32,081 nt of DNA, taken from Nitrosomonas communis. Its GTDB lineage: Bacteria; Pseudomonadota; Gammaproteobacteria; Burkholderiales; Nitrosomonadaceae. The stretch spans positions 1 through 32,081 of the forward strand of contig NZ_JAGFJM010000111.1 in the NCBI RefSeq assembly GCF_024102715.1. The letters run 5' to 3'. Positions within the stretch are counted from its first letter, which is position 1, and each line of letters opens with the position of its first letter. The notes under the pieces are model-generated. The model saw only the letters and a program-made list of their open reading frames with translations, did not search any database and was not told the origin of the DNA. A program made the position numbers and the translations under genes. Shown piece after piece: positions 1 to 13,679 of this stretch.

Positions 1-867
1 GAGCTGGACGCCCTGCGCGAGTTCATCATGGACCACAGCCCGACGGCGTCCTGGCTCTCCACCGCCGAGGCGGTGCTGCCCGCCGAGCATGACTGGGTGG
101 ATCGCATGAAGACCACCCGGCAGGACGTGCTGGATGCCCTCAAGCAGGCGGACCTGAGCGAGCTGGCCAGCCAGTCCCAGAGCATCGGGGCCAAGCTGCA
201 AAAGCTGAAGAAGGATTACACCGTCGCCTACATCGGCCTGCACACCAAGACCCGCCTGGGCGTGAACGACGACAAGCGCAAGGCCGGACTGCTCAACGAC
301 CAGCGGCTGCAAACCCTGCTCAAACTAGCCGGTATCGACCTGATGTCCCGGCAGCAGCTCACCGATTACCAGAACCGCCTGGCCGGGCTGAAGAGCTGCT
401 TCGCCCTGACCGAGCAAAACCTCGACGCCTCGCCCATCTGCCCGCATTGCGGGTTCCGGCCTTCGGTGGAAACCGGTGCGGCTGCAGGTTCGCAGATGGT
501 CGACCAGATGGACGCCCAGCTCGACGCCATGGTGGCGGCCTGGAACTCCACCATCCTCAGCAACCTGGAGGACCCGATCACCCAGGCCAATATGGATCTG
601 TTGAAAATCGACGACCGCGAGCCGCTGGAGGCCTTCATCAAATCGAAGGAACTGCCGGTGCCGCTGGACAGCAACTTTGTCCACGCGCTGAAGGAAGTGC
701 TTTCCGGTCTGGTCAAGGTCACCGTCAAAGCGCAGGAGCTGCAACAGGCCCTGCAAGTTACCGACGGCCCGGCCACCCCGGCGGAGATGAAGAAACGCTT
801 TGAGGAGTACATCGATCAGCTCACCAAGGGCAAGGACCCGGCCAAGGTGCGGATCGTCATGGAATAA
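1..867 (+). CDS. brxC: BrxC/PglY-type BREX protein (DUF6079), C-terminal part only
   Basis: The frame is open from the first base, so this is the last 288 residues of a much longer protein cut by the window edge. BrxC/PglY proteins are large P-loop ATPases at the heart of BREX phage defence; the ATPase part would lie upstream and is not visible. What is seen is a mostly helical, charged tail with one CPHCGFRPS zinc-knuckle-like motif (CPHC at about 437-448), which I associate with the DUF6079 family found in type 3 BREX. The DNA is GC-rich, unlike the gene that follows. The stop at 865-867 is 9 bases before the next start. Assignment rests on this tail plus the downstream pglXI-brxHII-pglZ-brxA order; the fragment alone would be hard to name. 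Confidence 0.65.
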
Positions 868-876
868 GGACATAGC

Positions 877-10924: not shown

Positions 10925-12918
10925 TGAATTCCTGGCGAGATGCTATCTTGAATGATTTTGTTCCCAACGTCAGCAAGCTGACTCTGGTCGCCGATCCGGA
11001 CTGCTTGTTGACCGAAGAGAAACTGGCGCTTGAATTACGCGAGCGCGGATTCGACTTGATTGAGTTCAATGATCCGGTCGAATTCAGATACGCCTATGAG
11101 TCCAAATACCGCTCGATCTGGGATCGCGGCGAACATACCGACCTGGTGGTGATTCTCCGATTGCAGGATGCCGAGCTGGAATCCCTGCCATACGATCTGC
11201 TCCAAGCGGGCCGCAAGCTTTCATTCAATCTGGGGGATCTGTTCCCAACGCTCAGCTATCCAGTCATCGAGAAGCTCGACCGAAGCCTGCTGGACGCACT
11301 TTTTGATGCCCAGCGCAAGTCGCCGCCGGATCGCATGGGCGATAACGCTACCAAGGATTTCATCCTCCGCCATGTATTTGGCATCGCCGCTGAGTTAATT
11401 GCCAGCGAGGTGGAACTGCTTCGCGCCTTGCTTCGTATGCACTATGGGAAGCTTCAGATCCCGCTGATGCTGGCAGAGCGGCTTATCCAGATTCTTAATG
11501 GGCATGATGGATTCAAGGCCTGGCCACTCTCTCAAATCGTTCCGAACGATGAGGCCTTCTTCGCCTTTTTGCAGGAAAGCTACCCGCTCTTTCTTTCCAG
11601 GGTCGGCAGCGCCAATCAGGTACGGGAAAATTCGCCGGAATACGGCCTCAAGTATCCCGGCCCTGACCGCCTGCCGTTTGACCATCAGGACATCAAGGTC
11701 TACATCGACAACCTGTTCCTAGAGGGGAAACTCACCCCTGTCGAGGCCAAAGGCATTGAAGTGGATGCCGGGTCCTGGGTTCGAAGCGGTATCGCCACCT
11801 CCGGCGTGGACGATGACGAGCTGCGGGTCTCTCGTTTGTTTGGCCTTGTCGAGAAGGAGCTGCCCACTGCGGAAGCGCGTTACTCGGACTGGATCGCCTT
11901 TGCATTGAAATGGGCCGAACTCTCTTCATTGGTTCATTGCGGCAACAGCTCCGAACATCAGACCCGTCTCAGAGAAATCGGCGACGCACTGAACACGACC
12001 TTTGCCGGTTGGCTGGCTGATCACTACTCCAGTCTGATCAACCTGCCGCCGACCAATCCGGCCATGCTCCACCATGTGCCGCGCCGCCTGGCTCGTGATA
12101 TCGAGGACTCCAGTAGCAGCCGTGTCGCGCTGCTCGTGGTTGACGGTCTGGCCCTCGATCAGTGGGTGACCATGCGCCAGCTTCTGCAAAAGCAGGACGC
12201 CAATCTGGTCGTGCGCGAATCCGCGACCTTCGCCTGGATTCCGACACTGACCTCGGTATCGCGGCAGTCGATCTTCTCGGGCAAGCCGCCGCTCTATTTC
12301 CCATCATCCATCAACTCGACTAACAGCGAAGAGAAGCTCTGGAAGCAGTTCTGGGAAGGCCATGGTCTGTCCCGGCTGGATGTCGCCTACCAGCGCGGCC
12401 TTGGCGACGGTGATGCTGCGGGCATCCTCGACTCCGCAATCCACCCCGGGAAGACCAAGGTGGTGGGGCTGGTCGTGGACAAGGTCGACAAGATCATGCA
12501 CGGCATGCAGCTCGGCTCGGCCGGGATGCACAACCAGATCAAGCAGTGGTGCCAGGGTGGGTTTCTGGCTGCGCTGCTCGACCAACTGCTTGAATACGGC
12601 TATGAAGTCTGGCTGACAGCGGATCACGGCAACATCCAATGTAACGGCAAAGGCCGCCCATCTGAAGGGGTGATTGCCGAAACTCGTGGCGAGCGGGTTC
12701 GTGTCTATCCCACGCCGGAACTCCGCGCTCAGGTGGCTGGGGCCTTCCCGTTTGCCCACGAGTGGCAGCCGGTTGGATTGCCAGCAGATTATTTCCCCTT
12801 AGTGGCCGGTGGCAGCGACGCATTCGTGAACCTTGGAGAGGCCATCGTAGGTCACGGCGGTGTAGCCATCGAAGAAGTCATCGTGCCCCTTGTGAAGTTT
12901 GAAAGGAAGATACGATGA
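10924..12918 (+). CDS. pglZ: PglZ-domain BREX protein
   Basis: 664 residues. PglZ is the signature protein of BREX systems and has an alkaline-phosphatase-like metal-binding fold. The recognisable part is the C-terminal half: VALLVVDGLALDQW (about 400-413, first metal aspartate), SVSRQSIFSGKPPLYFP (nucleophile-type Ser/Thr region), then LTADHGNIQCNGKG (about 562-575, Asp-His metal site) and GHGGVAIEEVIVPLVKF near the end. The N-terminal 380 residues are a helical domain of unclear role. Start ATG overlaps the preceding stop (TAATG); stop TGA overlaps the next start (ATGATG at 12915-12920). GC-rich composition matches brxHII. The exact biochemical job of PglZ in defence is not settled in the literature I know. 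Confidence 0.9.
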   Translation: MNSWRDAILNDFVPNVSKLTLVADPDCLLTEEKLALELRERGFDLIEFNDPVEFRYAYESKYRSIWDRGEHTDLVVILRLQDAELESLPYDLLQAGRKLSFNLGDLFPTLSYPVIEKLDRSLLDALFDAQRKSPPDRMGDNATKDFILRHVFGIAAELIASEVELLRALLRMHYGKLQIPLMLAERLIQILNGHDGFKAWPLSQIVPNDEAFFAFLQESYPLFLSRVGSANQVRENSPEYGLKYPGPDRLPFDHQDIKVYIDNLFLEGKLTPVEAKGIEVDAGSWVRSGIATSGVDDDELRVSRLFGLVEKELPTAEARYSDWIAFALKWAELSSLVHCGNSSEHQTRLREIGDALNTTFAGWLADHYSSLINLPPTNPAMLHHVPRRLARDIEDSSSSRVALLVVDGLALDQWVTMRQLLQKQDANLVVRESATFAWIPTLTSVSRQSIFSGKPPLYFPSSINSTNSEEKLWKQFWEGHGLSRLDVAYQRGLGDGDAAGILDSAIHPGKTKVVGLVVDKVDKIMHGMQLGSAGMHNQIKQWCQGGFLAALLDQLLEYGYEVWLTADHGNIQCNGKGRPSEGVIAETRGERVRVYPTPELRAQVAGAFPFAHEWQPVGLPADYFPLVAGGSDAFVNLGEAIVGHGGVAIEEVIVPLVKFERKIR

Positions 12919-13679
12919 TGGACAAAAGACATAAAAAACTGGGCATCAAACAAACGATCCAAAAACATTGGATGGATCGGACTGTTCAGATGATGCTGGC
13001 TGGGATGTCCGAGAGAGAAATACGAGCAGAGCTGGATGAATTTCTGAAAACGCAAAAGCAAAGCGGTGGTATAAGTCAGAGAGGAGAGAAAACTTATGGG
13101 ATGGCAATCGGCATTCTGGCTTCCTGGTTTGCTCCAGATTCAGACCTGGTTCCATTTCGTAATGATGTGCTGACACTTGCTAGAAGTTTGCCAACTGAAC
13201 AGTGGCTTCCACTTCACTGGATAATAATATCTGCTTCCTATCCCTTTTGGTTTAATGTTGCTAGGCAAGTGGGAAGGCTATTTAATCTCCAAAATCAGAT
13301 AACCCAGGCCCAAGTGTTTGGACGCATTAAGGAGCAATATGGTGACAGGGAGACTGTTGCAAGAAACGCACGTTATACCGTGCGTTCTTTTGTAGCTTGG
13401 GGAATACTCAAGAACTCTCAGAGCAAAGGTTGTTATGAGAAATTTGTGCCAATTAGCATTACTGATTCTGATGTAACTATTCTGATGTTTGAGTCCGCAC
13501 TTTATGCTGTACCTGAAGCAAAGGGAGCGCTAAACCTGCTGCTGAATAACCCGGCATTCTTTCCATTCCAGATCCCAATCATAAGTGGTGATTATGTTTC
13601 TCAATGCAGTGATCGACTGGAAGTAGTGCGGTATGGACTGGATGACATATTGTTAGTTTTAAAGAAGAAAGGTAACTAA
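12915..13679 (+). CDS. brxA: BrxA-like protein (DUF1819 type), last gene of the BREX operon
   Basis: 254 residues, ATG 12915 overlapping the pglZ stop, with GAAAGGAAGA just upstream; ATG 12918 is one codon later and equally possible. Position after pglZ is where type 3 BREX carries brxA. The sequence supports this: an all-helical protein with WFNVARQVGRLFNLQNQIT, then a DRETVARNARYTVRSFVAWGIL segment (about 149-170) like the winged-helix core of BrxA, a small DNA-binding-like helical protein also called DUF1819. I cannot confirm homology without a profile search. Unlike brxHII and pglZ, the gene is AT-rich, so BrxA has a different history from the core or has been replaced. Its TAA stop is the first base of a long inverted repeat. 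Confidence 0.6.
   Translation: MMDKRHKKLGIKQTIQKHWMDRTVQMMLAGMSEREIRAELDEFLKTQKQSGGISQRGEKTYGMAIGILASWFAPDSDLVPFRNDVLTLARSLPTEQWLPLHWIIISASYPFWFNVARQVGRLFNLQNQITQAQVFGRIKEQYGDRETVARNARYTVRSFVAWGILKNSQSKGCYEKFVPISITDSDVTILMFESALYAVPEAKGALNLLLNNPAFFPFQIPIISGDYVSQCSDRLEVVRYGLDDILLVLKKKGN

Follow-up and report, generated by a model that had tools for sequence, protein, structure and literature searches.

A type 3 BREX operon of Nitrosomonas communis carries predicted defence modules in junctions that hold exchangeable cargo

The draft genome of Nitrosomonas communis (NCBI RefSeq assembly GCF_024102715.1) contains an operon of the bacteriophage exclusion (BREX) system in which other genes stand between the core genes, and this raises the question of whether those genes belong to BREX, cooperate with it, or only share its operon. 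The window analysed here is the whole of contig NZ_JAGFJM010000111.1 (32,081 nucleotides, forward strand; contig C80 of the 3.05-Mb draft genome). Its first 13.7 kb contain, in one direction and on the plus strand, the tail of brxC, a Schlafen-like gene (slfn), parA, pglXI, vapK, vapS, vapC, brxHII, a small open reading frame (ORF), pglZ and brxA. The original prediction for this DNA held that two modules had been inserted around the methyltransferase gene pglXI with translational coupling kept, and that this coupling suggests they work with BREX. The insertion and the kept coupling stand; the coupling does not by itself support cooperation. We consider it probable that type 3 BREX instead serves as a chassis, with a fixed core and two slots that accept complete, autonomous, co-expressed defence modules, the cargo forming a second layer of defence.

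By its gene families, positions 1 to 13,679 are a type 3 BREX operon, and family searches agreed with the proposed order and families for every gene that has a family. Only the C-terminal part of brxC is in the window (1..867, truncated by the contig end), matching PF19557 from 956 to 1238 and the PADLOC BrxC profile from 944 to 1231. The operon is split within brxC across two contigs: contig C23 ends with brxF and the N-terminal portion of brxC, which covers positions 1 to 866 of the brxC profile, and the two pieces are not contiguous. BrxF on C23 (L045:11333-11905) scored 204 bits with NF033453 (cut-off 50) and 217 bits with PADLOC BrxF. The window continues with pglXI (brxXI; 3098..5902), encoding an N6-adenine methyltransferase of 934 amino acids (aa) (PADLOC PglXI, 1424 bits); brxHII (7723..10620), encoding a 965-aa helicase (1636 bits with the PADLOC model named BrxHI/BrxHII); pglZ (10924..12918), of type 3 by NF033449 (BREX_PglZ_3; 920 bits, cut-off 250); and brxA (12915..13679; PADLOC BrxA, 309 bits). 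The genes expected of type 3 BREX (PglXI, BrxHII, a type 3 PglZ, and brxF and brxC upstream) are present, and exclusion and methylation are the predicted activities.

We surveyed the junctions between core genes in type 3 BREX loci (designated by L and a number), calling brxC-pglXI slot A, pglXI-brxHII slot B and brxHII-pglZ slot C. One PglXI scan of genome contigs gave 38 loci. Searches with NF033449 covered 398 genomes from the host's phylum, 395 from the phylum of L010, 337 from the phylum of L020 and 321 from the class of L030, with 8, 23, 7 and 6 genomes, respectively, over the cut-off; we took regions from most of these and included two further loci from plasmids. Profiles made for this analysis served to map the genes, and a slot was scored as filled when the gap exceeded 200 bp. 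Loci L139, L140 and L125, whose core genes are identical to those of L004, L032 and L027, were dropped from the counts, along with L045 to L047, match-only loci and the window's own copies. Junctions were not counted when one core gene lay off the contig, when a core match was 60 bits or less, when the gap was 12 kb or more, or when the pair was out of order (L147, with a brxF-like match after brxC). L149 is outside the slot B counts, its helicase match (85 bits) sitting downstream of brxA.

Slot A was filled in 36 of 53 loci and slot B in 47 of 54. Two junctions were closed: brxF-brxC was filled in 0 of 36 (our host's own brxF-brxC junction being outside this count) and pglZ-brxA in 0 of 64. 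The difference between slots A and B together (83/107) and the closed junctions (0/100) is pronounced (p=2.6e-36). Slot C, filled in 7 of 59 loci, is a third and rarer slot. The accessory positions are therefore not peculiar to this genome, as other genomes use them too. Among slot ORFs of at least 150 aa, with minus-strand ORFs kept only above 150 aa, 134 of 137 lie on the operon strand. Slot B cargo starts within 100 nt of a core ORF in 41 of the 47 filled slots and ends within 100 nt of one in 41 of 47. Of the 82 filled slots, 80 had a lower GC content than the core (means, 0.497 versus 0.580).

Two details of the surveyed loci concern the empty or damaged state. An empty slot A is an 85-bp spacer in L002, L021, L022, L117 and L145, and the start of this spacer has a possible inverted repeat (GTGACCAA...TTGGTCA) where read. 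L013 and L014 keep their slot B cargo, pglZ and brxA, though only a short piece of brxHII was detected.

Within the window, the cargo is tightly joined to the core, and the gaps and overlaps of a few bases described in the original prediction were confirmed. On the slot A side, brxC and slfn are 9 bp apart, slfn and parA share an ATGA overlap, and parA and pglXI overlap by 4 nt. Around slot B, the intervals are 3 bp (pglXI-vapK), 16 bp (vapK-vapS), an 11-bp overlap (vapS-vapC) and 30 bp (vapC-brxHII). Toward the 3' end, brxHII overlaps the small ORF by 11 bp, the small ORF overlaps pglZ by 1 bp (TAATG), and pglZ overlaps brxA by 4 nt; brxF and brxC on C23 are separated by 18 bp. The array does not appear to be divided by internal signals: over positions 1 to 15600, promoter-like sites numbered 10 versus 13.7 in shuffled sequence, which is no excess, and terminator-like sites numbered 20 versus 17.1 (standard deviation, 4.7), which is no clear excess.

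The predicted contrast between AT-rich accessory genes and a GC-rich core was also borne out, and it is sharper at third codon positions. Third-position GC is 0.87 in the brxC tail, 0.76 in brxHII, 0.69 in pglZ and 0.59 in pglXI, which is a mosaic, versus 0.44 in slfn, 0.50 in parA, 0.38 in vapK, 0.48 in vapS, 0.44 in vapC and 0.40 in the small ORF; the host flanks have a GC content of 0.44 to 0.45. The GC-poor middle of pglXI (about 3769..4611, edges approximate; GC 0.38) is entered by no alignment to 32 listed relatives between 3772 and 4606. The type 3 BREX methyltransferase is described as containing a large target recognition domain insert (PMC12839542), and because the position fits that insert we read this segment as a specificity domain, not as a cassette. 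As had been pointed out, brxA is AT-rich (third-position GC, 0.39) although it belongs to the canonical set. Among the same 32 relatives, the window's brxA matches L013, L014, L020, L023 and, weakly, L031 (66%) over most of the gene, and in the remainder the match stops near 12960 or consists of short, weak pieces. Type 3 loci thus seem to have at least two divergent brxA types, the window's being the rarer among these relatives, and its AT-rich composition fits a second, divergent type.

The slot B cargo (5906-7692) is, by sequence, a vapKSC-like module, with closely spaced genes in the order kinase, STAS and PIN. The published VapKSC consists of a kinase (VapK), an antitoxin (VapS) and a toxin (VapC); VapC is toxic, VapS neutralises it, and the system gives about 2-log protection against one phage (PMC13373217). 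Its trigger is thought, but not demonstrated, to be single-stranded DNA (ssDNA) (PMC13373217). In the window, the putative antitoxin (6795..7151; STAS, DUF4325; 118 aa with a short tail after the STAS domain) matches Escherichia VapS (PDB 9z7o chain A) at E 1.3e-17, the sole PDB match at E 1e-3, and the PIN protein (7141..7692; 183 aa) matches VapC (9z7o chain C) at E 1.4e-6; both proteins have 9z7o as their best PDB match. S53 of the STAS protein aligns with the conserved VapS serine, chain residue 66, corresponding to S48 on the assumption that the construct has 18 extra residues. D22 of the PIN protein aligns with VapC D28, and four acidic positions are conserved in all six aligned PIN proteins. 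For the PIN gene, the most likely start codon is the ATG at 7141 rather than 7027.

The kinase gene (5906..6778) encodes a GHKL ATPase domain (HATPase_c) with what we take to be N-, G1- and G2-like motifs. The protein had no match in the PDB search, and an N-terminal STAS region is suggested for it by analogy with published VapK. Its F42 is F or W in all six aligned rows, in an alignment that contains no VapK reference to anchor F54. The aromatic residue of the ssDNA site is F54 in VapK and W68 in CapK (PMC13373217).

Three further loci join this module to BREX genes: L010 (Desulfobotulus), L012 (an actinobacterial metagenome-assembled genome [MAG]) and L039 (a Desulfobacterales MAG), with vapK identities to the window of 84%, 73% and 72%. 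L039, the fourth vapKSC locus, has only a pglXI tail and a brxA-like fragment beside it. The module is also found on its own. Our host's genome has a second vapKSC-like trio on contig C65 (L046; kinase identity, 44%) with no BREX gene detected within 15 kb, and vapKSC occurs in L154 and L185, where the stretches examined have no BREX genes, detected or annotated. Contig C109 of the same genome (L047) carries a further DUF4325 gene with no vapK or vapC match within 15 kb. Among 72,556 plasmid records the kinase matched in two; the one inspected has all three genes, and the other matches 46% of the kinase. In the published collection, 103 of 289 vapKSC operons (36%) lie near some defence gene (PMC13373217).

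Slot A holds a two-gene module, a Schlafen-like protein (a candidate RNase) and a ParA ATPase. The first gene (877..2085) encodes a 402-aa protein with SLFN_AlbA_2 (PF04326, E 2.9e-13) and HATPase_c_4 domains. Its E17, E22 and D61 are invariant in 6 of 6 aligned homologues, with spacings of 5 and 39 versus 5 and 38 in the E-E-D active site of SLFN13 (PMC5862951). Alignment against the PDB gave one significant match, of residues 257-390 to 3lmm, and three weak titin matches. The second gene (2082..3101) encodes a 339-aa ParA/AAA_31 ATPase and most likely starts at 2082, within the ATGA overlap.

Relatives of this ParA at E 1e-20 or better occur in 10 genomes besides the host's own, among 229 of its class. 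The neighbour is an SLFN gene with an ATGA overlap in five (L175 to L178 and L180), SIR2_2 in two (L181 and L182), HEPN_RiboL-PSP in two (L183 and L184) and, in L179, what we read as a large methyltransferase-like protein. The five SLFN-ParA pairs have no BREX genes in the stretches examined. Four of the 15 plasmid ParA matches listed, out of 3,898 matching records, were inspected: those in L156 (Salmonella) and L157 (Spirosoma) adjoin SIR2_2 genes, and those in L155 and L158 do not. In the one ParA family surveyed here (ParA/AAA_31), the ATPase gene seems to have interchangeable neighbours, namely predicted toxic effectors (SLFN_AlbA_2, SIR2_2 or HEPN_RiboL-PSP), and its product is possibly a shared sensor or switch. 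The window's SLFN protein is 43-84% identical to those of the stand-alone pairs and scores 19-40 bits against other slot A SLFN proteins; being much closer to the stand-alone pairs, it suggests that slot A has taken up Schlafen-like proteins repeatedly. No second SLFN-ParA pair in slot A within BREX was found among the surveyed assemblies.

The third insertion is a small ORF in slot C (10610..10924, 104 aa) whose ends overlap the stop of brxHII and the start of pglZ. The reading listed mechanically for this interval (10605-10955, 116 aa) is in the wrong frame. The 104-aa protein has no Pfam family and no homologue among the surveyed loci then compared; it also matched none of the four-helix or GxxExxY small genes of the other slot C loci compared. 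Those small genes recur in the slots, and from their sequences we take them to be S23-type four-helix and GxxExxY proteins. The four-helix type is in slot A of L003, L008, L010, L011 and L132, slot B of L004, L024, L119 and L132, and slot C of L124; the GxxExxY type is in slot B of L007, L031 and L126 and slot C of L004 and L132. Together with CACGAAT-rich spacers in some cases, these genes resemble small insertion-like elements.

Across the survey, the cargo is often a known stand-alone defence system. Cargo was assigned to families from a single representative of each cluster; apart from IetAS, HEC-03A and AriA, the names given to systems are our own. Among the 47 filled slot B junctions, 14 hold an OLD/AriA-like ATPase; it is paired with a 349-aa protein in six of these, and in another six it stands with HEC-03A (a PIN-like protein) and an RNA ligase. 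IetAS occupies 6 and vapKSC 3 (the window, L010 and L012). AIPR is found in 3, an AAA_21 protein with DUF4276 (labelled PARIS-like) in 2, and a UvrD helicase in 2, which in L123 is beside an OLD-TOPRIM protein (labelled Gabija-like); the remaining cargo is various, much of it with no assigned family. SLFN_AlbA_2-type proteins are present in 16 of the 36 filled A slots and are commoner there than in slot B (3/47; p=5e-5, a figure inflated by shared ancestry). The three-gene cargo of OLD/AriA-like ATPase, HEC-03A protein and RNA ligase recurs between pglXI and brxHII or pglZ in L004, L006, L008, L013, L037, L081 and L141, and by its families may be a cutter beside a sealer. The 349-aa partner is in slot B of L003, L017, L018, L021, L023 and L138; the copy that represents it (L017) falls into neither a Pfam nor a PADLOC family.

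Cargo turnover is close to independent of the core. Homology blocks relative to the window stop at or near gene borders, typically covering 1-868, 3114-3768, 4612-5905, 7725-10596 and 10933-12960; in L010 and L012, which have the same cargo as the window, the alignment runs across vapKSC. L003 and L117 share 5,626 bp at 97.4% over brxHII-pglZ-brxA, yet their cargo is the OLD ATPase with the 349-aa protein in one and IetAS in the other. For L018 and L019 the shared DNA is 2,720 bp of pglXI (98.9%), and their cargo differs in the same way; L003 and L032 share 3,598 bp at 98.0% with different cargo. Core DNA of up to 98% identity is in this way found in different phyla with unrelated cargo. These records are a Clostridiales bin (L003), a Lentisphaera MAG (L032), a Lysobacter strain (L018) and a Desulfobulbus draft (L019), and binning errors are possible for L003 and L032. 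In a rapidly built PglZ tree that covers 48 loci and leaves out L149, the slot B label changes 33 times, compared with a minimum of 20 and a shuffled mean of 37.8, so cargo is weakly clustered and mostly free. The window's nearest PglZ relatives carry the OLD ATPase with the 349-aa protein, IetAS, and the OLD-PIN-ligase cargo.

Gene identities, the slots and their boundaries, turnover and the intact key residues are read from sequence in this way, and from them we infer co-transcription, activity, a trigger, a route of exchange and some coupling to BREX, as follows. BREX would be the first layer, methylating self DNA and blocking phage DNA, and the cargo would be a second, self-sacrificing layer expressed from the BREX operon. 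Phage damage, or ssDNA from the action or failure of BREX, would activate VapK; VapK would phosphorylate VapS at S53, and VapC would be released to cleave RNA. The SLFN-ParA pair may act as a parallel RNase switch with a different trigger. Cargo could be swapped by recombination via the conserved core genes. As a bridge between the layers, BrxHII could supply ssDNA by unwinding nicked DNA. The PglZ of type 1 BREX is reported to nick DNA, from which nicking by type 3 PglZ is an extrapolation. PglZ nicking has been proposed as a possible signal to auxiliary effectors (PMC12839542). A stronger version, which we regard as possible though rather unlikely, makes type 3 BREX a two-slot expression platform, into which recombination via the core genes brings any of a wide range of defence modules, and makes the module a tripwire for it. 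VapK would be activated by ssDNA that arises when PglZ nicks and BrxHII unwinds DNA, or when a phage attacks BREX, and the slot A ParA would be one of a family of shared sensors whose effectors elsewhere are SIR2 or HEPN proteins instead of a Schlafen-like one. The RNase would then fire while exclusion is under way or failing.

Several points weigh against the chassis interpretation. The case for expression and activity rests on sequence, and the structure model of the SLFN protein (predicted local distance difference test, 53) is too poor for use. The 38 scanned loci were selected by likeness to the window's own PglXI, several surveyed records are MAGs whose host names may be wrong, and the brxHII ORF is just partial in L013, L007 and L122. 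The slot B labels, which we assigned, are slightly more clustered on the PglZ tree than expected by chance (2 of 200 shuffles gave as few changes), which means that part of the cargo is passed on together with the core; of the 45 inner branches of the tree, 20 are weak. Finally, vapKSC adjoins BREX genes in just four surveyed loci, one of which (L039) has BREX remnants only, and hence nothing specific ties vapKSC to BREX.

This leaves a serious rival, which we nevertheless think unlikely, in which independent systems hitchhike in a tolerated spot of an operon that is often transferred and draw from it no more than a promoter, with no functional relation to BREX. It is serious because both modules are found elsewhere without BREX, as described above for vapKSC (L046, L154 and L185) and SLFN-ParA (L175 to L178 and L180). 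The same slots also hold unrelated systems, and L039 retains vapKSC with little else of BREX. These observations likewise undercut the argument from coupling to cooperation: slots elsewhere hold unrelated systems or nothing, cargo changes almost freely relative to the core, and a better reading is that the modules are self-contained defences housed in a common operon. Pure hitchhiking, however, does not readily account for insertion confined to two, rarely three, of five junctions and almost always co-oriented, or for the preference of SLFN proteins for slot A.

The remaining explanations fare worse. Gene overlaps inside the operon and the placement of the cassettes between core genes could mean that they are working subunits of this BREX, required for methylation or exclusion; we consider this very unlikely, as slot B is empty in 7 of 54 loci and slot A in 17 of 53, and loci with near-identical cores have unrelated contents. 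Regulation of BREX transcription by VapK and VapS is less probable still. It is suggested by the related kinase-STAS pair CapK/CapS, which controls adjoining immune operons (PMC13373217), but CapS is a STAS domain plus a winged helix-turn-helix whereas the window's protein is a short-tailed STAS, its only PDB match at the threshold used is VapS, and a PIN gene follows the STAS gene, as in vapKSC. An assembly chimera, which the break within brxC might suggest, is hardly credible: L012 aligns unbroken across pglXI-vapKSC-brxHII (4817-10095, 81%) and L010 from vapKSC into brxHII (5873-8690, 79%), although slot A with SLFN-ParA has no comparable second example inside BREX.

The operon is flanked on both sides by housekeeping genes. 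Beyond brxA we assign genes of the galU, radA, tyrS, anmK and argC families, and on the C23 side we read hom, thrC, gltA and sucA from the translations. The galU-like protein is 80% identical to one in the Nitrosomonas MAG (G403) that holds L014, which makes a Nitrosomonas-like host probable. Synteny with the congener G102 holds for galU, the next gene, radA and p18624, beside which lies an ABC-transporter match (30% identity); a clean empty site was not found there, the tested C23-side genes being absent from the 20 kb examined.

Reading type 3 BREX as a probable chassis turns the observation of embedded genes into a measurable rule, namely which junctions are used, in what orientation and how freely contents are exchanged. 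New defence modules could then be sought in slots A and B, as lower-GC cargo between conserved core genes. The locus also offers a concrete case, open to experiment, in which a damage-sensing toxin system is paired with BREX, and it flags a ParA family seemingly paired with interchangeable toxic effectors.

Compared with canonical type 3 BREX (brxF-brxC-pglXI-brxHII-pglZ-brxA), the operon has the same six core families in the same order and direction but carries three cargo insertions, with brxF and most of brxC on another contig. Nucleases embedded in BREX and vapKSC were both published in 2026, so the phenomenon itself is known. The trio shares with VapKSC (Chambers et al. 2026, PMC13373217) its gene order, GHKL kinase, antitoxin serine and toxin aspartate; here, in contrast, it lies inside a BREX operon, and the main text of that paper names BREX in its introduction and references only. 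Rakesh and Krishnan (2026, PMC12839542) describe the same phenomenon of PIN, Schlafen, OLD-ABC and restriction endonuclease genes in or beside BREX as a second layer. Their main text, figures and supplements aside, mentions no STAS, GHKL, ParA-like or ParA family and contains no junction count or exchange analysis that we found; it calls the effectors not sporadically acquired, whereas here the contents turn over almost freely. More widely, open full texts, with the same limit, yielded no junction-wise count, exchange analysis, vapKSC inside BREX, or ParA-effector family. Two earlier cases are close in design (PMC12707154). PrrC in the EcoprrI type I restriction-modification locus is likewise an RNase guard gene inside a restriction operon, but it is one enzyme with a known link to its host complex, compared with the autonomous multi-gene modules and putative link described here. 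BrxU is likewise an extra, independently acting defence gene with a BREX cluster, but it is a type IV restriction enzyme and a single example, in type 1 BREX.

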